Virus record (IMG/VR): IMGVR_UViG_3300021356_000182
Span: 1 to 22,984 of that record
DNA: 22,984 nucleotides
Strand: one strand, 5' to 3'
From: a virus
The notes below the pieces were generated by a model. That model worked only from the letters and a program-made list of their open reading frames with translations. It had not been told where the DNA came from and searched no databases. Positions within the stretch are counted from its first letter, which is position 1, and each line of letters starts with the position of its first letter. The translations under genes were made by a program, and so were the position numbers. Of the stretch, positions 3,628-19,788 are shown piece by piece.

Positions 3628-3963
3628 ATGAAACTTATAGATAAGGCAAAAGCTCATTTTGACTCATTAGATGTCAAAGAGATAGAGATACCTGAATGGA
3701 GTGATGGAGATGAGGTTCTTAAAGTATATGCAAAGCCATTAACGCTAGCAGAAATGTCTAAATTGCAACGATATGCAAAAGATGATGACGTAGCATTGAT
3801 GGCTTATTGCTTAATATATAAAGCCTTAGATTCTGATGGTGAAAAAGTATTTGATCTATCAGATAAACATACACTTATGAATGGTGTGGATAAAGATGTG
3901 CTTGCAAGAGTTGCAACTGAAATCATGTCATCACCAAGTGTAGAACAACAAGCAAAAAAGTAG
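3628..3963 (+). CDS. Tail assembly chaperone, gpG-like (unshifted product)
   Basis: This is a 111-aa protein. The N-terminal beta region (KEIEIPEWSDGDEVLKVYAKPLTLAEM) precedes a helical part, as in gpG-type chaperones that coat and solubilise the tape measure before tail assembly. It sits between the tail tube and tape measure genes. It ends GAA CAA CAA GCA AAA AAG TAG, where the last seven sense bases form a canonical -1 slippery heptamer, so the gene encodes two products. Most ribosomes should stop at TAG 3961-3963, giving this form. Confidence 0.85.
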   Translation: MKLIDKAKAHFDSLDVKEIEIPEWSDGDEVLKVYAKPLTLAEMSKLQRYAKDDDVALMAYCLIYKALDSDGEKVFDLSDKHTLMNGVDKDVLARVATEIMSSPSVEQQAKK

Positions 3964-4115
3964 CAGAGGATAAGGACTTATTTGCTAAATACTATCTAGC
4001 TGAAATGTTACATTGCACACTTCAGGAACTAGAAGAAAAGATGACCTTATCCGAATTTACAGGATGGTTAGCATATTTAGAGGAAAAGAATAGGCAGATA
4101 AGAAATGGCAACTGA
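3628..4115 (+). CDS. Tail assembly chaperone, gpGT-like fusion made by -1 frameshift
   Basis: Slippage by -1 on A AAA AAG (3954-3960) re-reads G3960 and continues in the -1 frame as VAEDKDLFAKYYLAEM... to TGA 4113-4115. This adds 51 codons for a total of about 162 aa. The added domain has the gpT hallmark: a helix ending in HCTLQELEEKMTLSEFTGWL, then AYLEEKNRQIRN. This corresponds to the lambda T domain that binds the tail tube protein while the G part binds the tape measure. The extension has no start codon of its own in a sensible position. It overlaps the tape measure start by 11 bases. The frame, motif and slippery site all agree; the frameshift efficiency is unknown. Confidence 0.85.
3954..3963 (+). 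promoter_or_regulatory. Programmed -1 ribosomal frameshift site (A AAA AAG followed by TAG)
   Basis: The heptamer A AAA AAG is in the correct zero-frame phase (GCA AAA AAG TAG) with the stop codon immediately after the slippery codons. The stop at the A site may increase slippage. Lambda uses G GGA AAG at the equivalent position. I saw no strong downstream pseudoknot. Confidence 0.85.
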
Positions 4116-5619
4116 TTATAAATTAAGAATTACAGCCCAAGATAAAAGTAAAAAGGGCTTTAATTCAGTAAATAAAAATATCAACAGCACCCAATCAGCT
4201 ATGAAAAAATTAGCTGGTGCTTTTGCTGGTGTTTTTGCTGTTAGACAAATTGTTGAATTTGGTAAGGAGACATTAGCTTTAGCAGATACTATTGGTAAAG
4301 TTGCTGATTCTATTGGTGTTCAAACAGAGTTTTTACAAAGATATCAATTTGCTGCTCAACAATCAGGATTAACTACTGAAGAGTTTAATAAGGGTATGCA
4401 GAACTTTACCAAGATGGTAGGTCAAGCACAACTTAGAACTTCTGAAGCTGGTAGGACATTAGAAAAACTTGGAGTACAAGTTAAAAATGCTGATGGTTCT
4501 GTAAAAGGTGCAGAGCAAGTATTTATTGAATTGATGACTGCTCTTGATGGTGTTGGTAGTCAATTTGAGAAAAATGCTATCTTAGCTGACCTTATGGGTA
4601 GAGCAGGTGTAAAACTTGCTGTTATGGGTAAAGATGGTTCAGAAGCTATGAAAGAATTAGCTGCTTCTGCTACTGGAATTATACCTGAAGAAACTATAAG
4701 GGATGCTGAAAGATTTAATGATTCTATGAATCGTCTACAAAGACAGGTTTTAACACCATTAAGAAATGAGTTAATTGAAGTTGCTACAGCTTTTCTAGAT
4801 GTAGCAGAAGCTATGGGATTAGTTGACCCTGAACCTTACACTAAGAGTATAGAAGAACAAAATCAACAGTTTGCAAATTCTAATACATTGATTAAGGCTA
4901 TGATGAATACTCTTAGGAAAAATAAAGAGTTAACAGAAGACCAAAGAAAAACTATAAAAAATGCATTACTAGAAGAAATAAAATTAAGAGATGAAGCTAG
5001 TGAAGCAATCATAAAATATAATAAGACTCAAGAAGCTAAAGAAATATTTACTGGAAGCATAGATACTAGCAATCAATTAAATAATTCAATAAAAGAAAAT
5101 ATAACTGTAGTAAAACAATTTGCAGATACAGTTGAAGGTGAATTAACAAGAGCATTTACTGATTTCTTTGATTCTACAAATAAACAATTTTTAGATTTCC
5201 AAAATTTAGCCACCTCAGTCGCAAGAGCAGTAGTTGCTGAATTGATAAATATATTTGTAGTACAAAAACTTGTAGGAATGGCAACAAGTGCTATAACTAA
5301 CTTAGGTACACTTGGTAGTGGTGGTATGGGTGATGTAGTAGATGGATTTCAGAATTTAGATGGTGGTGGTTATACAGGTAATGGTATAAGAGCAGGTGGT
5401 TTAGATGGTAAAGGTGGTCGTTTAGCTATGATACACCCACAGGAGACTGTTATAGATCACACTAAAGGACAAGCTATTCAATCAGCACCAACAGTAAACT
5501 TTAATATATCAACAGTAGATGCTGCTGGATTTGATCAATTACTAGCATCAAGAAAAGGATTAATAACATCAATCATAAACAATGCCATGAACAATCAAGG
5601 CAAAATGGGAGTCGTATAA
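4105..5619 (+). CDS. Tape measure protein
   Basis: This is a 504-aa, helix-rich protein. MATDYKLRITAQDKSKKGF followed by an amphipathic/hydrophobic segment (LAGAFAGVFAVRQIVEFGK) is the characteristic tape-measure opening. Long helical stretches follow (about 60-360). A Gly-rich segment near 400-440 (GGMGDVVDGF, GGGYTGNGI) and a late motif LAMIHPQETVIDHTK are typical of tape measure C-termini. By family knowledge it sets tail length and is ejected ahead of DNA. Its short length implies a tail of roughly 75 nm at about 0.15 nm per residue, which is an inference. No peptidase or lysozyme domain is visible inside. The gene overlaps gpGT by 11 bases and couples to the next gene through TAATG. Confidence 0.88.
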   Translation: MATDYKLRITAQDKSKKGFNSVNKNINSTQSAMKKLAGAFAGVFAVRQIVEFGKETLALADTIGKVADSIGVQTEFLQRYQFAAQQSGLTTEEFNKGMQNFTKMVGQAQLRTSEAGRTLEKLGVQVKNADGSVKGAEQVFIELMTALDGVGSQFEKNAILADLMGRAGVKLAVMGKDGSEAMKELAASATGIIPEETIRDAERFNDSMNRLQRQVLTPLRNELIEVATAFLDVAEAMGLVDPEPYTKSIEEQNQQFANSNTLIKAMMNTLRKNKELTEDQRKTIKNALLEEIKLRDEASEAIIKYNKTQEAKEIFTGSIDTSNQLNNSIKENITVVKQFADTVEGELTRAFTDFFDSTNKQFLDFQNLATSVARAVVAELINIFVVQKLVGMATSAITNLGTLGSGGMGDVVDGFQNLDGGGYTGNGIRAGGLDGKGGRLAMIHPQETVIDHTKGQAIQSAPTVNFNISTVDAAGFDQLLASRKGLITSIINNAMNNQGKMGVV

Positions 5620-10237: not shown

Positions 10238-13200
10238 ATGGCACAACACGATTACAACATAGCAAACCAGTCAGGTGCAGATTTTAGAGCAGATTTAAAT
10301 AATGCTCTTTTAGCTATTGCAACAGTCAATAGTGGAGCAACTGAACCATCAACCACATTTGCCCATCAATTATGGGTAGATACATCAACTAGTGAATTAA
10401 AGATCAGAAACGCTGCTGATAATGCATGGATTACTACAGGTGTTAGTATTACTGCATCTAATACATTTACAGGTGACTTAACAGGTAATGTCACTGGTAA
10501 TGTAACAGGTAATGTTACTGGTAATGTAACTGGAGACTTAACAGGTAATGCAGATACAGCTACTACTCTTGCAACTGCAAGAACTATATCTTTATCAGGA
10601 GATGTTGTAGGTTCTGCTTCTTTTGATGGTAGTGCCAATATAGATATAGATACAGTAGTTCAGATTAATTCAATTACTTTAGGTACTGATACAACTGGTG
10701 ATTATGTTGAATCACTATCAGGTGGAACTGGTGTAACAGTAACAGGTGGAACTGGAGAAGGTTCTACTCCTAGTGTTGCTATAGGACAAGCTGTAGCTAC
10801 AACTGATGATGTTACTTTTAATAGTGTTACTGCTCCTGATTTTATTGGTGATTTACATGGTGCTGTAAGATTCCCAGCTAAAGCAGATGGTGCTTTATCA
10901 AAGGGTGATGTAGTTTATATTTCAGGTGTTACTGGCAATAATCCAACAGTAGCAAAAGCTAAAGCTGATGATGCATCTAAAATGCCTGCATTTGGTTTAG
11001 CTGCAAGCGATGCTAATGATAATGCTAGTGTTTCTATTTTAACTTTTGGTACTTTATCAAATATTGATACATCACAATTATCAGTAGGACAAATATTATA
11101 TGTATCTACAACAGCAGGAGAATATACAACAACCCCACCTTCAGGTGAATCAGCACAAATACAAAACATAGGCAAAGTTCAAAGAAGTCATGCAAGTGCT
11201 GGTTCAATAAAAGTAGGTGGAGCTGGAAGAAGCAATGCTACGCCTAACTTAGATAATGGCAAAATATTTATAGGTAATGCTTCTAATGAATCATCAACAG
11301 CAACACTTGATACTTCTATAGTCGTTGAAAATACTAATCTTTACTATACAACTACAAGAGCAAATACAGATTTTGATACAAGATTAGCTACTAAAGATAC
11401 AGGTGATTTAACTGAAGGAAGCAACTTATATTACACAACAGTTAGAGTTAATTCAGATTTTGATACTAGATTAGCTACTAAAGATACTGGAGACTTAACT
11501 GAAGGCTCTAATCTTTATTATACAGATGCAAGGGTTAATTCTGCATTTGATACAAGACTTGCTACTAAAGATACCAATGATTTAAGCGAAGGAACAACTA
11601 ATTTATATTACACATCATCAAGGGCAAATACAGATTTTGATACTAGACTTGCAACTAAGTCTACAACTGATTTAGCAGAAGGCACTAATTTATACTATAC
11701 ATCTGCTAGATTTGATTCAGCTTTTACATCTAAAGATACAGATGATCTTAGCGAAGGATCAACTAATTTATATTACACAACTGCAAGATTTGATTCTGCA
11801 TTTGGTAATAAAACAACTGCTGATTTAACAGAAAACACAAATTTATACTATACAGATACAAGAGCAAATTCAGCTATAGATACAAGAGTAACTAAAGCAT
11901 TTGTTGATGCATTAGGAATACAAGCATCAAGCGTAGATGCTAATTCAGTTGCATTAGGAACTGATACTACAGGTAACTATGTTGCAACGATAACAGGAAC
12001 AGCTAATAAGATTTCAGTGTCAGGAAGTGGTAGTGAGTCTGCAGATATAACACTATCGCTACCTGATGATGTTCAAATTGCATCTGATTTAACAGTAGCA
12101 GGTAATTTAACTGTTAATGGAACTCTTACATCTCTTGATACTACTAACTTAGATATAGAAGATAACTTATTCCAGCTTAATGCAGGATTAACAGGATCAC
12201 CAGTTAATGATTCAGGTATGTTGATCAATAGAGGTACTGCTGATAATGGTATCTTTATGTGGGATGAATCTGTTGATAAATTCACATTAGGATTAACAAC
12301 AGCAGATGGCAGTGCTACAGGTAATATTACTCTTAATTCACTTGGTACTTTAGTTGCTAATATTGAAGGGGATGTTACTGGAGCAGTTACAGGTACAGTT
12401 TCTAGCTTATCTAATCACGATACTGATGACTTAGCTGAAGGTTCTAACCTTTATTATACCCAAGCAAGATTTGATTCTGCTTTTACTGCTAAATCTACAA
12501 GTGATCTATCTGAAGGATCAAACCTTTACTATACAGATGCTAGATTTGATACAAGACTTGGAACAAAAGATACTGATGATCTGTCTGAAGGAACAAGCAA
12601 TCTTTACTATACAACAGCTAGATTTGATTCTGCTTTTGGTGGTAAGTCTACATCTGATTTATCTGAAGGTACTAATTTATATTATACAAGTGCAAGAGCT
12701 AACTCTGATTTTGATACTAGACTTGCAACAAAAGATACTGGGGATTTATCTGAAGGCTCTAACCTTTATTACACTGATGCAAGAGTACAAGCTGTTTCTA
12801 TTAACAATGTTGTAGAAGATACAACTCCCCAGCTTGGTGGTAATTTAGATTTAAACTCAAGCGATATAACAGGTACAGGTGATATTAATATTACAGGTAC
12901 AGTAACAGCTTCAGATTTAGAAATAGATTCAGGAACTTTATCAGTTGATTCTACAAATAATAGAGTTGGAATTGGAACGACTAGTCCTAGCCATGATTTA
13001 ACAATACAAAAATCAGGACAAGATAATTATATAAGAATTGGTTCTAATTCAGATGGTTATGATGCAGGTGTATATTTTGGTACAAATGCTGATTGGTCAA
13101 TAGGTATTGATAATTCAAATAGCAATGCTTTTAGTGTTGCAAGTGGCTCAACTGTAGGAACAAATCCTAGAGTTACCATTGATTCTTCAGGCAATGTTGG

Positions 13201-14422
13201 AATTGGTACGAGTAGTCCAAGCAAAAAATTTGTTGTGTCTGAAAGTGGAGCACATGGTTTTGAAATATCACCTTATGATGGTAGTCAAAATGCAACAAGG
13301 TTAATTAATTATAATAGAAGTACAAACGCATATTTTCCTTTAGAAATTGAAGCATCACAAATTACTTTTGAAACAGGCTCAACAGAAAGAATGCGTATTG
13401 ATTCTTCAGGTAATGTTGGAATTGGAACGAGTAGTCCAAAAGAGCTTTGTGATATTAATGGTGGAGGTTTAATTGTACGAGGTGCTTTAACTAATGGAGT
13501 TGGTAGCGGTAATGGTTTAAGGTTTGAACACACCTCAGATATAGGTCAAATTTATTCATTGGAACCAAATGTGGCTTGGAGAGAGCTAAGATTAAATGCT
13601 TCCCAACAAACTTTCTATATTGCTAATGGCGAAAAAATGCGTATTGATTCTTCAGGTAATGTTGGAATTGGAACGACTAGTCCTTCTACTTTATTACACT
13701 TATCTAATGCGTCAAATCCAGCTATAAGAGTTACAGATACTACTAATTCATTAAACATTGAAATAACTGCAACTGATACTATTGGTTATTTTGGTACAGA
13801 AAGTAATCATGCAACAGCATTTATAACTAACAATACAGAAAGAATGCGTATTGATACTTCAGGCAGATTGATGGTAAACCAAACATCTGCTTCAGCAGCT
13901 AGTGCTGGGAATAAAATGCAACTTGCTGCCGATGTTTTAAGCACTGGTTCTTTGGCAGGATTTTTTTGGGAAAACAGAAGTGGCATGACAATAGCTTCAC
14001 AAAGTGGCTGGGGTGGTTGGTACTCAACTGGAACTGCAAGTCATTTCATATATAGTGATGGTGCTAATAGAGCTAGTATTGGTCGTACATCAGGAACATA
14101 TACTGCTCTTTCAGATGTAAATAAAAAGAAAGATTTTGAAGATTCAACTGTAGGTTTAGCTGAAGTAATGCAGTTACAACCTAAAAAATTTAGAATGCTA
14201 GATGATGCAGATGATGCTCCTAAAAAATTAGGTTTTGTAGCCCAAGATGTTGAAAATGTAATACCTGAAGCCTACGTTGAAGATTTAGCAGATGATGAAA
14301 ATGAAGAAACATTTATTGGACTTACAGATACACCGATTATTGCTGCTTTAACCAAAGCTATACAAGAACAACAAGATCTAATAAATAATTTAACTTCAAG
14401 AATAGAAGAGCTAGAAAATTAG
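10238..14422 (+). CDS. Long repeat-rich tail fibre with C-terminal S74 intramolecular chaperone
   Basis: This protein is 1394 aa, with AGGT 8 bases before the ATG. The N-terminal part (about 1-70, ANQSGADFRADLNNALLAIA, HQLWVDTSTSELKIRN) is a common fibre attachment region. Residues about 79-106 are 4-residue G-[ND]-[VL]-T repeats. About 368-553 and 738-851 hold tandem 25-30-residue units of the form LYYTxxRxNxxFDTRLATKD. The region 900-1210 carries IDSSGNVGIGTSSP motifs separating distinct modules, as in many fibre shafts. The end is an S74 domain with the Ser-Lys pair in SDVNKK (S1292, K1297) and GFVAQDV. By family knowledge this domain aids trimerisation, then cleaves itself off. It is probably a receptor-binding or side fibre, Ser/Thr/Asn/Asp-rich throughout. 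Confidence 0.85.
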   Translation: MAQHDYNIANQSGADFRADLNNALLAIATVNSGATEPSTTFAHQLWVDTSTSELKIRNAADNAWITTGVSITASNTFTGDLTGNVTGNVTGNVTGNVTGDLTGNADTATTLATARTISLSGDVVGSASFDGSANIDIDTVVQINSITLGTDTTGDYVESLSGGTGVTVTGGTGEGSTPSVAIGQAVATTDDVTFNSVTAPDFIGDLHGAVRFPAKADGALSKGDVVYISGVTGNNPTVAKAKADDASKMPAFGLAASDANDNASVSILTFGTLSNIDTSQLSVGQILYVSTTAGEYTTTPPSGESAQIQNIGKVQRSHASAGSIKVGGAGRSNATPNLDNGKIFIGNASNESSTATLDTSIVVENTNLYYTTTRANTDFDTRLATKDTGDLTEGSNLYYTTVRVNSDFDTRLATKDTGDLTEGSNLYYTDARVNSAFDTRLATKDTNDLSEGTTNLYYTSSRANTDFDTRLATKSTTDLAEGTNLYYTSARFDSAFTSKDTDDLSEGSTNLYYTTARFDSAFGNKTTADLTENTNLYYTDTRANSAIDTRVTKAFVDALGIQASSVDANSVALGTDTTGNYVATITGTANKISVSGSGSESADITLSLPDDVQIASDLTVAGNLTVNGTLTSLDTTNLDIEDNLFQLNAGLTGSPVNDSGMLINRGTADNGIFMWDESVDKFTLGLTTADGSATGNITLNSLGTLVANIEGDVTGAVTGTVSSLSNHDTDDLAEGSNLYYTQARFDSAFTAKSTSDLSEGSNLYYTDARFDTRLGTKDTDDLSEGTSNLYYTTARFDSAFGGKSTSDLSEGTNLYYTSARANSDFDTRLATKDTGDLSEGSNLYYTDARVQAVSINNVVEDTTPQLGGNLDLNSSDITGTGDINITGTVTASDLEIDSGTLSVDSTNNRVGIGTTSPSHDLTIQKSGQDNYIRIGSNSDGYDAGVYFGTNADWSIGIDNSNSNAFSVASGSTVGTNPRVTIDSSGNVGIGTSSPSKKFVVSESGAHGFEISPYDGSQNATRLINYNRSTNAYFPLEIEASQITFETGSTERMRIDSSGNVGIGTSSPKELCDINGGGLIVRGALTNGVGSGNGLRFEHTSDIGQIYSLEPNVAWRELRLNASQQTFYIANGEKMRIDSSGNVGIGTTSPSTLLHLSNASNPAIRVTDTTNSLNIEITATDTIGYFGTESNHATAFITNNTERMRIDTSGRLMVNQTSASAASAGNKMQLAADVLSTGSLAGFFWENRSGMTIASQSGWGGWYSTGTASHFIYSDGANRASIGRTSGTYTALSDVNKKKDFEDSTVGLAEVMQLQPKKFRMLDDADDAPKKLGFVAQDVENVIPEAYVEDLADDENEETFIGLTDTPIIAALTKAIQEQQDLINNLTSRIEELEN
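10472..10555 (+). repeat. 12-bp tandem repeats encoding G-[ND]-[VL]-T units
   Basis: Seven consecutive 12-base units follow the pattern GGTAATGTNACN, with GGTGACTTAACA-type variants at both ends. They encode GDLT GNVT GNVT GNVT GNVT GDLT GNAD. Synonymous differences between units show the array is selected as protein, not just recently slipped DNA. It probably forms a beta-helical shaft segment. Confidence 0.85.
11339..11896 (+). repeat. Tail fibre repeat block A (LYYT units)
   Basis: There are seven tandem copies of a 25-30-residue unit, each opening with LYYT. Four long units contain FDTRLATK (for example RANTDFDTRLATKDTGDLTE). Two shortened units (RFDSAFTSKDTDDLSE type) lack part of that segment. 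A seventh degenerate unit (RANSAIDTRVTK) ends the block. Third-position divergence is high, so the array is old. Confidence 0.85.
12449..12790 (+). repeat. Tail fibre repeat block B (LYYT units)
   Basis: This second array of the same unit has five LYYT openings. It is separated from block A by about 180 residues of a different domain (TLTSLDTTNLDIEDNLFQLN onward). Units include RFDSAFTAKSTSDLSE, RFDTRLGTKDTDDLSE and RANSDFDTRLATKDTGDLSE. Confidence 0.85.
13391..13683 (+). repeat. Near-identical 47-bp direct repeats in tail fibre
   Basis: Positions 13391-13437 and 13637-13683 differ at one base by eye and encode MRIDSSGNVGIGT[ST]SP. A third, slightly more diverged copy begins at 13178, and partial copies occur near 12966 and 13844. 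The sequence between copies encodes unrelated modules. Confidence 0.85.
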
Positions 14423-16544: not shown

Positions 16545-16634
16545 CACCTAAAAATAAATTAATATTTTTTTACACATTTATATATATTTATGTATAATGG
16601 GGGTATGTTAATTAAAAATAAGGAGTTAAATAAC
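16545..16634 (+). promoter_or_regulatory. Intergenic control region between late block and DNA-metabolism block
   Basis: This is the largest gap between genes in the window. It holds an A/T-only inverted repeat (AAAAATA at 16550-16556, TATTTTT at 16563-16569, 6-base loop). That repeat could be a weak terminator or an UP-like element. The promoter at 16569-16598 and the AAGGAG of the next gene follow. Confidence 0.6.
16569..16598 (+). promoter_or_regulatory. Sigma70-like promoter
   Basis: TTTACA (16569-16574) and TATAAT (16593-16598) are separated by 18 bases, with an A/T-rich tract upstream. It is the best promoter match I found. It points into the small-gene and methyltransferase operon. 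Transcription would start near 16605, upstream of the AGGAG and ATG at 16635, which excludes the earlier in-frame ATG at 16590. Confidence 0.7.
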
Positions 16635-16883
16635 ATGAACTATAACAATGTAAAAGATGCTTGGGGTAATGTATTAACATCAAGACAGTCACAAACCAAA
16701 TCTAAAGTTAATTTTCTAATAGGCAGAAGCAAGGGTGATACTGCTGAATTAGAAAGACTTTGGAAATTATATGACGAAGCTCACGAAAAATATAATAAAA
16801 AAATAGATGCTCTTACAGCTAAAAGAGATTATGAAGTTGATTATATTTGGAAAGAGATTTGTAAATTAGAAGGGAGTAAATAA
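16635..16883 (+). CDS. Small protein of unknown function, first gene of DNA-metabolism operon
   Basis: This is an 82-aa protein starting MNYNNVKDAWGN, with AAGGAG upstream. Starting at 16590 instead would place the start codon inside the -10 element. The sequence is charged and helix-rich: TAELERLWKLYDEAHEKYNK and a following helix (LTAKRDYEVDYIWKEICKLE) suggest a two-helix coiled coil. No family is recognised. As the first gene behind a strong promoter it could be an early host-interaction or regulatory protein, but this is position only. It ends EGSK with TAATG coupling to the next gene. Confidence 0.75.
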   Translation: MNYNNVKDAWGNVLTSRQSQTKSKVNFLIGRSKGDTAELERLWKLYDEAHEKYNKKIDALTAKRDYEVDYIWKEICKLEGSK

Positions 16884-17035
16884 TGTCAGCAACTAGATAC
16901 ACACTACAAGTTCAACTACCCAGTATAGGCTGGGTGGTTGCTATCAAGACTAGCGACTTATTCTATATGGCTAGTAAGAGAGCAAGATTAATTGCTCAAG
17001 GGCATAAGGTTAAATTAACTAAGGAGAAGAAGTAA
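16883..17035 (+). CDS. 50-aa protein of unknown function
   Basis: The ORF MSATRYTLQVQLPSIGWVVA... ends in a Lys-rich tail (KVKLTKEKK). GGGAG precedes the ATG by 8 bases, and both ends use TAATG overlaps with neighbours. A short beta region (YTLQVQLPSIGWVVAIKTSD) is followed by a basic helix (FYMASKRARLIAQGHKV). It is rich in Lys/Arg and might bind nucleic acid. No family is recognised. Confidence 0.7.
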   Translation: MSATRYTLQVQLPSIGWVVAIKTSDLFYMASKRARLIAQGHKVKLTKEKK

Positions 17036-17244
17036 TGGCTAAATACACAAACGAAGAAAAAGCACTTATGGTTTATGCTTTAAATCTTATGGCAGGTGAA
17101 TCACATATTTGGAATGATGAAACGCATGACAAAATATTCAGACTTATTGATAAGGTTGATACTCCATTTATACCTAATGATGATAGTGGTTTGTACAACA
17201 AAAAATATCAAAACTATATGAAAAGCTGGGAGAGTAAAAAATGA
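17035..17244 (+). CDS. 69-aa protein of unknown function
   Basis: AAGGAG upstream and TAATG coupling support the start. The sequence has an N-terminal helix (NEEKALMVYALNLMAG), then acidic and aromatic residues, and ends KSWESKK. No motif is recognised. It overlaps the next gene by 4 bases (ATGA). It is probably expressed with the methyltransferase gene downstream. Confidence 0.7.
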   Translation: MAKYTNEEKALMVYALNLMAGESHIWNDETHDKIFRLIDKVDTPFIPNDDSGLYNKKYQNYMKSWESKK

Positions 17245-17498
17245 ACCTAATGTGCAATACCAAACATGGTGTTATTCAATGGAGATGGAAAGACTCAGGT
17301 CAACCATCTCCTGAATACAAATCATTGAATCATCAATGGTGGATTCCTAAGAAGACTGAGTTTGAATTAGTTACTAAAGTTGATCCTACGATTAAGCAAG
17401 AAATCAAAGACGAGATTTGGGAAGATATGCAATCTGATTTTGAGTATCAGAAAGGCATTTATAAATTACATAAATTAAATAAAAGGGAGAGTAAATAA
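17241..17498 (+). CDS. 85-aa protein of unknown function
   Basis: The protein is Trp-rich near its N-terminus (MNLMCNTKHGVIQWRWKDSG, then NHQWWIPKK), followed by a charged helix (KQEIKDEIWEDMQSDFEYQK). It starts inside the GGGAGAGTAAAAAATG cassette and ends NKRESK at the copy that precedes the methyltransferase gene. No family is recognised. Confidence 0.7.
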   Translation: MNLMCNTKHGVIQWRWKDSGQPSPEYKSLNHQWWIPKKTEFELVTKVDPTIKQEIKDEIWEDMQSDFEYQKGIYKLHKLNKRESK

Positions 17499-17500
17499 TG
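17478..17500 (+). repeat. 23-bp direct repeat, left copy, at methyltransferase start
   Basis: AATAAAAGGGAGAGTAAATA followed by ATG matches 18101-18123 at 22 of 23 positions by eye. It combines the C-terminal codons of the upstream gene, the Shine-Dalgarno, the stop and the next ATG. The two copies exactly flank the methyltransferase gene at 17498-18121. Confidence 0.8.
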
Positions 17501-18121
17501 AAAACATTAGAATTATTTGCAGGTAGTAGAAGTTTTAGCAAGATAGCAAAAAGTTTAGGTCATAAAGTATATACAACTGATAATCAAGACTTTAAATCTA
17601 TAGATCAAGTATGCGATATATTCGATTTTGACATCAATAAAATACCTTATAAACCTGACATAATTTGGGCAAGTCCACCTTGTACAAGTTTTTCTGTTGC
17701 ATCTATTGGTCATCATTGGAATCTTGACCATACACCAAAAACTGATAAAGCTGAATTAGGTGTGGCAATTGTAAAAAAGACAATTGAAATTATTAATTAT
17801 TTAAAACCTAAATATTGGTTTATTGAAAATCCAAGAGGTAAATTAAGAAAGTTAGATTTCATGCAAAATTTACCAAGAAAAACTGTTACATATTGTTCTT
17901 ATGGAGATATGCGAATGAAGCCTACAGATATATGGACTAATTTTGATTTTACGACTAGAGCTATGTGTAAAAATGGTAATAAGGACTGCCATCACGAACC
18001 AGCTCCTAGAGGATCACAAACTGGAACACAAGGATTAAAGGGAGATTATTTGCGAAGTCAAATACCACCAGCTTTATTTGAAGATATATTTGAACAAATT
18101 AATAAAAGGGGGAGTAAATAA
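17498..18121 (+). CDS. DNA C5-cytosine methyltransferase-like protein (1)
   Basis: This is a 207-aa protein. Motif I LFAGSRSF (6-13) is the SAM-binding loop. PPCTSFS (60-66) holds the catalytic-type Cys62, and ENPRG (110-114) corresponds to the ENV-type motif. A later segment with YCSYGD, KPTDIWTN, paired Cys/His (C157, C164, H165) and RSQIPPALFEDI is common to small phage cytosine methyltransferases. It is much shorter than typical enzymes (over 300 aa) and has no long target-recognition domain. Protection of phage DNA from host restriction is the likely role. No cognate endonuclease is adjacent. The gene is bounded by 23-bp direct repeats. Confidence 0.85.
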   Translation: MKTLELFAGSRSFSKIAKSLGHKVYTTDNQDFKSIDQVCDIFDFDINKIPYKPDIIWASPPCTSFSVASIGHHWNLDHTPKTDKAELGVAIVKKTIEIINYLKPKYWFIENPRGKLRKLDFMQNLPRKTVTYCSYGDMRMKPTDIWTNFDFTTRAMCKNGNKDCHHEPAPRGSQTGTQGLKGDYLRSQIPPALFEDIFEQINKRGSK

Positions 18122-18123
18122 TG
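18101..18123 (+). repeat. 23-bp direct repeat, right copy, at methyltransferase end
   Basis: AATAAAAGGGGGAGTAAATA followed by ATG is the partner of 17478-17500, with one mismatch. The last 14 bases (18110-18123) are also identical to 16872-16885, another gene junction. The spacing between the pair equals the length of the methyltransferase gene. Confidence 0.8.
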
Positions 18124-18213
18124 GACTATCAATTATTAATATTAGTAGCTGCTGTAGCTTACCTATCTTATGGTGCTGCACTTTTAATCAACGACAGGAA
18201 TAACAGAAAATGA
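18121..18213 (+). CDS. 30-aa single-TM microprotein
   Basis: MDYQLLILVAAVAYLSYGAA is a single membrane helix ending in a polar, basic tail (NDRNNRK). A strong GGGGGAG lies before the ATG, and it has TAATG and ATGA overlaps on its two sides. No family is recognised. It may be an inner-membrane microprotein, and its presence between two methyltransferase genes is unexplained. Confidence 0.6.
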   Translation: MDYQLLILVAAVAYLSYGAALLINDRNNRK

Positions 18214-18386
18214 ATGTAACATTTAATTTAATGGGTGGTGGTGAATTAAATATACCATCAAGAGCAATCAGTGGTTTCTATAAAGATGAATTTACCAGTG
18301 AGGTCATAGTTGAAGTTAATGGTGATGAATACAAGGTTAGAGATTCACTAGATGAAGTTAGATATATATTGGGGTTAGCAAGATGA
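18210..18386 (+). CDS. 58-aa protein of unknown function
   Basis: The ORF MNVTFNLMGGGELNIPSRAI... carries two short beta stretches (VTFNLMGGGELNIP and EVIVEVNGDEYKV) and a C-terminal helix (SLDEVRYILGLAR). It joins both neighbours through ATGA overlaps. It has no recognised family, but the fold-like alternation and tight coupling argue that it is real. Confidence 0.65.
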   Translation: MNVTFNLMGGGELNIPSRAISGFYKDEFTSEVIVEVNGDEYKVRDSLDEVRYILGLAR

Positions 18387-18955
18387 AAGTATTAGTTGCT
18401 TGTGAATATAGTGGAATAGTAAGAGATGCTTTCACTAAAAAAGGACATGATGCTATCAGTTGCGATATCTTACCAACTGAATCAGAAGGTAAGCATTATC
18501 AAGGTGATGTATTAGATATATTAGATGATGGTTGGGATTTAATGATTGCACATCCACCATGCACACACTTATCAGTTAGTGGTGCAAGGTGGTTTACTGA
18601 AGGAAGAAAACCAATGTATTTAAGAGATGAAGCTATAGAGTTTGTGAAAAAACTTATGGATGCACCTATTGATAAAATATGCATTGAAAATCCTGTAAGT
18701 GTAATTTCTTCATACATAAGAAAATCTGACCAAATGATAAACCCATTTCAGTTTGGTCACATGGAATATAAAAGAACTTGTTTGTGGTTGAAGAACTTAC
18801 CTAAATTAAAAGAAACAAATAATGTAAAAAAAGAAACAGATGCATTACCTGACAAAGAAAAGCATAGAATTTGGTGGATTGGTGGTGGTAAAGGAAAAGA
18901 AAGAAGTAAATTTTATACTGGCATAGCAGATGCTATGGCTGAACAATGGGGATAA
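18383..18955 (+). CDS. DNA C5-cytosine methyltransferase-like protein (2)
   Basis: This is a 190-aa protein. It opens MKVLVACEYSGIVRDAFTKK (SAM-loop-type motif I, variant of FxGxG). GHDAISCDILPTE and HYQGDVLDIL follow, then PPCTHLS (58-64, Cys60 catalytic type) and IENP (101-104). The C-terminus has NPFQFGHMEYKRTCLWLKNL and an IGGGKGKERSKFYTGIADAMA end typical of phage Dcm-like proteins. The two methyltransferase-like proteins in this operon are not close copies: motif I and the C-termini differ. A second specificity, or a non-standard base-modifying role, is possible. The start overlaps the 58-aa gene by ATGA. Confidence 0.8.
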   Translation: MKVLVACEYSGIVRDAFTKKGHDAISCDILPTESEGKHYQGDVLDILDDGWDLMIAHPPCTHLSVSGARWFTEGRKPMYLRDEAIEFVKKLMDAPIDKICIENPVSVISSYIRKSDQMINPFQFGHMEYKRTCLWLKNLPKLKETNNVKKETDALPDKEKHRIWWIGGGKGKERSKFYTGIADAMAEQWG

Positions 18956-18957
18956 AT

Positions 18958-19788
18958 ATGAAAATAGAATCACTTAAAAACTTTGAATCTAAACAAAAGG
19001 GTCAGGCTCTTATTTATAAAGACTTACCCAATGAGGACTATCATGCAAGTGTAGGGATCAGTAGTAGTTATGTTAGAAGGTTTGGTCAATCCCAACTTCA
19101 TGCAGTCAACTACACTTCTGAATCTACTCCAGCACTAAAGTTTGGAACAGCAGCTCATTCTTTATTAGTAGAAGGACAAGAAGCATTTGATAAAGAAGTC
19201 AGGGTGCTTACAGGTTCTCCTTATACTAAAGCATATAAAGAAGAGAAGGCTGAATACGAAGAGCAAGGATTCATAGTATTAAAAGAAGATGAAGCTGAGA
19301 TCATAAAAGGCATGAAAGAGAATATGATCTATGAGGGTAATGCTTACCTAAATGCAACTGGCAAGATACCTGAAGCAAGTATCTACTGGTATGAAGATGA
19401 CGTGCTATGTAAATGTAGACCTGATGTTATGTGTCCACCTTTAGATGAACCTAACTCAGATAACAGGATAGTCATTATTGATTACAAGACTACACAATCT
19501 TGCGAACCTCATGCTTTTAATTATTCAGTTAAGAAGTATGGCTATGATATGCAAGCTGCTTATTATAGAAGAGGAGTTGAGATGGCTGGATATGAAGTTA
19601 CTGATTTCTTATTTATAGCTCAAGAGAAAGTACAACCTTATGCATCTAAAGTTTTTAGAATCACGAAAGAACAAATGGATTATGGCTGGACTATGATGGA
19701 GCAATACCTGAATGATTATAAAGAATATCAAAAAGGTAAACCTTTAAGTATTTACAATAGTCCTAATGTTGTGGATTTGGTGTTGTAA
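18958..19788 (+). CDS. Exonuclease VIII / RecE-like PD-(D/E)XK nuclease
   Basis: This protein is about 276 aa. The ATG at 18958, two bases after the previous stop with GGGGAT upstream, is preferred to the in-frame ATG at 18946, which would overlap the methyltransferase. Features of the DUF3799/RecE-type nuclease core are present: FGTAAHSLL (H67), IPEASIYW (E139), KCRPD (D156), IIDYKTT (D175, K177) and YDMQAAYYRRG (Q199, Y202). By family knowledge it degrades DNA 5' to 3' to leave 3' single strands for annealing. No RecT/Beta-type annealase is recognised next to it. The gene for the protein with an SSB-like tip lies about 1.3 kb downstream. Confidence 0.85.
   Translation: MKIESLKNFESKQKGQALIYKDLPNEDYHASVGISSSYVRRFGQSQLHAVNYTSESTPALKFGTAAHSLLVEGQEAFDKEVRVLTGSPYTKAYKEEKAEYEEQGFIVLKEDEAEIIKGMKENMIYEGNAYLNATGKIPEASIYWYEDDVLCKCRPDVMCPPLDEPNSDNRIVIIDYKTTQSCEPHAFNYSVKKYGYDMQAAYYRRGVEMAGYEVTDFLFIAQEKVQPYASKVFRITKEQMDYGWTMMEQYLNDYKEYQKGKPLSIYNSPNVVDLVL

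Follow-up and report, generated by a model that had tools for sequence, protein, structure and literature searches.

A methyltransferase gene between two 23-bp direct repeats in a marine tailed phage: probably a recent single-gene insertion with a duplicated upstream gene end

How does a single gene come to lie between two nearly identical short sequences, each of which closes one gene and opens the next? The question is raised by a DNA methyltransferase gene (MT1) in a 22,984-base virus record of a marine tailed phage, called here, at its whole length, the window. The closest cultured capsid to that of this phage belongs to Roseobacter phage CRP-811 (62%), whose annotated genes near the nucleases and SSB show a differing arrangement, with no counterpart of the slot occupied by MT1. 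A sequence-only reading of the window had proposed a natural one-gene swap cassette, or alternatively convergent ribosome-site sequence.

The repeat and the genes that it joins

The locus comprises the following features.

17035..17244, + strand: 69-aa accessory gene in the slot before g85 in the window; a homologue lies after g85 in relatives L081 and L179
17241..17498, + strand: g85, conserved 85-aa gene upstream of MT1 (51 relatives)
17478..17500, + strand: upstream seam copy; NKRESK, the last six codons of the 85-aa gene, with Shine-Dalgarno (SD) sequence GGGAG and TAATG overlap
17498..18121, + strand: MT1, the probable inserted gene, 207-aa C5-cytosine DNA methyltransferase (Pfam DNA_methylase, PF00145, 2.7e-8; phrog_757, 3.9e-32)
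18101..18123, + strand: downstream seam copy; NKRGSK, the last six methyltransferase codons, with SD and TAATG; 22/23 to the upstream copy
18121..18213, + strand: g30, predicted membrane-like 30-aa peptide, directly after g85 in empty-site relatives
18210..18386, + strand: g58, conserved 58-aa gene, from comparison with relatives
18383..18955, + strand: MT2, 190-aa DNA methyltransferase, second inserted gene, in the g58/exonuclease slot (phrog_757, 9.6e-66)
18946..19788, + strand: RecE-like exonuclease (DUF3799 / exonuclease VIII family), conserved right boundary (PF12684, 1.1e-24; phrog_412, 1.1e-61)

The PF00145 match of MT1 is above cutoff, and the PPC motif is present in its sequence. The direct repeats described at 17478-17500 (AATAAAAGGGAGAGTAAATAATG) and 18101-18123 (AATAAAAGGGGGAGTAAATAATG) are confirmed by the sequence: 22 of 23 bases match, the sole difference being one A/G, and both copies comprise the last six codons of one ORF, the SD, the stop codon and the overlapping ATG of the next gene. 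The stretch AATAAAA, 5' of the SD, is also common to both. With up to three mismatches allowed, the pattern is found at just these two sites in the window (0.01 in shuffles), the next-closest gene starts matching at 16-18 of the 23 positions and the majority at 7-14. Among 3,204 pairs of gene starts taken within one genome, from 38 related genomes, the MT1 bracket is the sole pair reaching at least 21/23. Repeats ending at any ATG numbered 16 pairs, vs 12 in a reversed-sequence control, which is not significant alone; the argument rests on comparative evidence.

The second methyltransferase gene of the locus, MT2, is missing from the majority of relatives. It carries its own SD-like 3' end (GGGGATAA) and is not flanked by a repeat (6/23). 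The junction of the 69-aa accessory gene is a weaker version of the seam (GGGAGAGTAAAAAATG). Elsewhere in the window, a long tail-fibre-like gene (10238-14422) contains many internal repeats of ~83-87 bases, built of LYYTxARxxSAF units.

The slot in related phages

Genomes covering the slot were gathered with three baits, namely the exonuclease and the 85-aa and 58-aa genes; 38 distinct ones were obtained, window included. In 27 of them g85 is joined directly to g30 or its equivalent, with nothing between, and a different gene or a promoter-led block fills the slot in 10 others; MT1 occupies it in the window only. The methyltransferase is thus absent from, or replaced at, the same junction, as a swap would have it, and the outcome that the sequence-only reading held against itself, a gene always present with diverged flanks, is not what the relatives show. 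The junction predicted for a deletion product exists in nature: L089, L096 and L125 match it without mismatch over the 23 bases, and at 92-94% over 523 bp. These three and other relatives lacking the gene carry a single copy of the repeat. Since these empty forms are 6-8% diverged from the window, they represent natural alternative forms rather than sister isolates. More distant relatives are also empty (L153, L180, L187, L189-L191), and because the gene is missing there in 27 of 38 genomes, such distant ones included, the insertion of MT1 is the derived state.

The nucleotide identity of g85 is 89-95% in the twelve empty-site relatives compared, and its last 23 bases are identical in L003, L083, L089, L096, L125, L133, L157, L162 and L164, regardless of the gene that follows. 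The g85 seam is followed by other genes in some of them, by c29 in L157 and L164 and by c15 in L162. In several relatives sequence identity ends at the ATG after this seam, and most single inserts lack matching flanks.

Several DNA methyltransferase-like genes (MT1, MT2, c19-type genes and the adenine-methylase-like c17) rotate through slots of this phage family. Such genes are found at 18383-18955 of the window and in the post-exonuclease slot of L003, L094, L170, L187 and L191, and c17 is found in L081, L125, L160 and L162. This rotation suggests changing DNA modification in the phage family.

Origin of the repeat and competing explanations

Comparison of MT1 with its own relatives brings further clues about the downstream copy. 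Such relatives are encoded by 74 viral contigs in IMG/VR, and neither the junctions nor the NKRGSK tail was found in any of those whose end was read; their C-termini are of the type EIESK, EIKNK, IKKGK or IKKGQIDI. Since they end differently, NKRGSK is foreign to MT1 and equal to the g85 tail (NKRESK), within a C-terminal similarity that is short and of which a part (stop, SD and spacer) is under functional constraint. In L003 and L007, of the same phage family, MT1 sits behind the exonuclease instead, so that more than one slot is known for this gene. Its copies in other phages have unrelated flanks, and a nucleotide search of annotated phages gave matches limited to methyltransferase fragments.

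MT1 is thus probably a recent single-gene insertion at the g85/g30 junction, with a duplicated g85 tail joined on, and the 23-bp repeat is best explained as a scar left when a single insertion duplicated this SD-bearing tail. One-base gene overlaps (TAATG) place each SD inside the last codons of the preceding gene and, because of this embedding, a gene inserted here must supply the SD of the next one. MT2 does so with its own end, MT1 instead with the g85 tail. The insertion would have attached a further copy of that tail (NKRxSK, SD and stop/start) to the body of MT1, which leaves all three genes, g85, MT1 and g30, with a ribosome site and a reading frame; the direct repeat would therefore be the duplicated tail of the upstream gene. 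The join may have arisen when co-infecting phages recombined at short gene ends of similar sequence, possibly with the aid of recombination enzymes of the phage, of which a RecE-like exonuclease is encoded next door, and selection for working junctions would have followed. Red-type phage recombination enzymes recombine diverged DNA (PMC2327257). Once in place, the repeats would permit precise loss of the gene. A rule is suggested by these observations: where the SD lies inside the preceding gene, an insert needs either its own terminal ribosome site or a duplicated upstream tail.

A parallel case is provided by L003. Downstream of c19 stands a second, 84-bp copy (93%) of the 3' end of the exonuclease gene, SD included, by which the MT1 gene lying behind c19 keeps a ribosome site. 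The two copies of this repeat, at 3897-3980 and 5105-5188, bracket c19, a C5 methyltransferase-like gene. The joint is a 13-base near-match (CAAATAGATAATG/CAAATGGATTATG) between the end of c19, as it stands in relatives, and the interior of the exonuclease gene. By its sequence, this joint points to short-homology joining. L081 and L179 form a third such pair, with c42 lying between two identical 16-base seams in the former and missing from the latter.

Could the two junctions have become alike without any duplication? Independent optimisation of both as ribosome sites with TAATG overlaps would explain why the core SD and spacer recur at other junctions of the window, at 17-18/23 at 16883 and 17241, a sharing that the sequence-only reading had rightly pointed out. 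However, the identity runs upstream of the SD through AATAAAA and encodes the same residues (NKRxSK), which the MT1 relatives do not carry, and only one of the 3,204 within-genome pairs is this similar. The distribution of the 15-base core of the seam (GGAGAGTAAATAATG) is also restricted. It recurs at many junctions of this gene cluster, and with up to one mismatch 28 sites are found in 58 kb of cluster vs none in 291 kb outside, raw counts that are not independent, since one homologous junction is often present in many related contigs. Counting each kind of overlapping junction once, which partly corrects for such homologous positions, gives 14/49 inside vs 0/18 outside (p 0.014) at up to one mismatch and 21/49 vs 0/18 (p 0.0006) at up to two; even with three mismatches, none of the 18 overlapping junctions outside carries the core. 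When viral contigs were scanned for a 20-base version, 15 stretches matched, all from this phage family except L200, L204 and L207, whose neighbouring proteins are unrelated. Pure SD convergence was rejected on the tail residues, the pair ranking and the outside count, and we regard it as very unlikely: it fails for the full 23 bases, and the 15 bases that other junctions do share are shared in this cluster only. A target-site duplication left by a transposition-type insertion, which would likewise bracket one gene with a short direct repeat, is extremely improbable. The insert is exactly one methyltransferase-family ORF and gave no match to a transposase, integrase or homing endonuclease, and both transposition and homing were rejected in the absence of such domains. 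Moreover, the repeat is imperfect and coincides with a gene-end function, no such repeats flank the other inserts in the slot, and MT1 copies elsewhere lack flanking duplications of unrelated target sites.

Another explanation involves routine homologous exchange between seams, two seam crossovers having brought in MT1 from a donor in which it already lay between seams. The 15-base core follows 7 gene families and precedes 9, in the cluster only; the same accessory genes appear in two slots (c18 and homologues of g17035); and a second seam-bracketed gene is known, c42, which lies between two identical 16-base seams in L081 and is absent from L179. However, the flanks of 38 further single-gene inserts, spread over three slots, agree at 6-16/23 only, no donor with MT1 already bearing a seam tail was found among the MT1 relatives, and the flanks of MT1 in other phages are unrelated. 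Such an origin of MT1 is unlikely. The dissimilar flanks of those 38 inserts show that swapping here does not need 23-bp repeats, and a general 23-bp cassette device was rejected on this ground. The one-gene swap cassette proposed from the sequence thus stands in part: forms with the gene absent or replaced do exist, but the repeat bracket is unique to the MT1 insertion. It is conceivable, though unlikely, that the GGAGAGTAAATAATG seam is a working exchange joint through which accessory genes are traded singly by short-homology recombination with translation intact. If so, this phage group would keep the same stop/SD/start at many accessory gene ends for trading.

Comparison with known systems

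Short shared sequences at module borders have been proposed as recombination points in lambdoid phages (Clark et al. 2001, on HK620; Susskind and Botstein 1978, cited in PMC3029335). The present cluster likewise has one short sequence that recurs where different genes meet and is confined to the mosaic region. By its distribution, the seam core amounts to more than a generic SD consensus, and it is similar to the proposed lambdoid boundary sequences. The boundary differs here in its position, within the 3'-terminal coding sequence of the upstream gene, and most swaps of the cluster lack long shared borders. In cluster K mycobacteriophages, a 13-bp sequence, the SAS (GGGATAGGAGCCC), is found a few bases upstream of the start of non-structural genes (PMC3203893). 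It has in common with the seam its repetition just before start codons, whereas its sequence differs and the window seam includes the stop and start codons.

Promoter-leader units form another repeated element of this phage family. In the window, a promoter-like TTTACA-18-TATAAT is followed by the leader ATGTTAATTAAAAATAAGGAGTTAAATAACATG (16569-16637). This leader is conserved in relatives before many different genes, so that the true start of the ORF called at 16590 is probably ~16635. The unit is present twice in L081 (3758-4652), L183 (5485-6327), L184 (5022-6327), L172, L174 and L131, where the second copy heads a block of 2-4 genes inserted after g85. This is reminiscent of the mobile promoter cassettes (PeSL) of T4-type phages, reportedly described by Arbiol in 2010 and Comeau in 2014. 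The likeness lies in duplicated promoter-leader units that head accessory gene blocks in several relatives; it does not extend to MT1, which was not brought in by a promoter cassette.

Gene 68 of mycobacteriophage Island3 has 18 C-terminal residues that copy those of gene 67, and Brujita has a single copy (Pope et al. 2011, PMC3029335). Deletion or acquisition through recombination between the copies was offered as the explanation (Pope et al. 2011, PMC3029335). At the level of sequence, the architecture of the MT1 locus is the same: the C-terminus of the extra gene copies that of the upstream gene, and in the relative without that gene the shared 3' end occurs once. The differences are the phage family and the extent of the copy, ~50-60 bp (18 residues) there vs 23 bp (6 residues) with SD and stop/start overlap here. 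The relatives of the window phage add to this comparison, within one phage family, an unusually complete natural series of empty, filled, replaced and moved states for a single-gene gain. The MT1 case is ordinary in kind and unusually clear, a clear recent example of a known route of single-gene gain and loss in phages.
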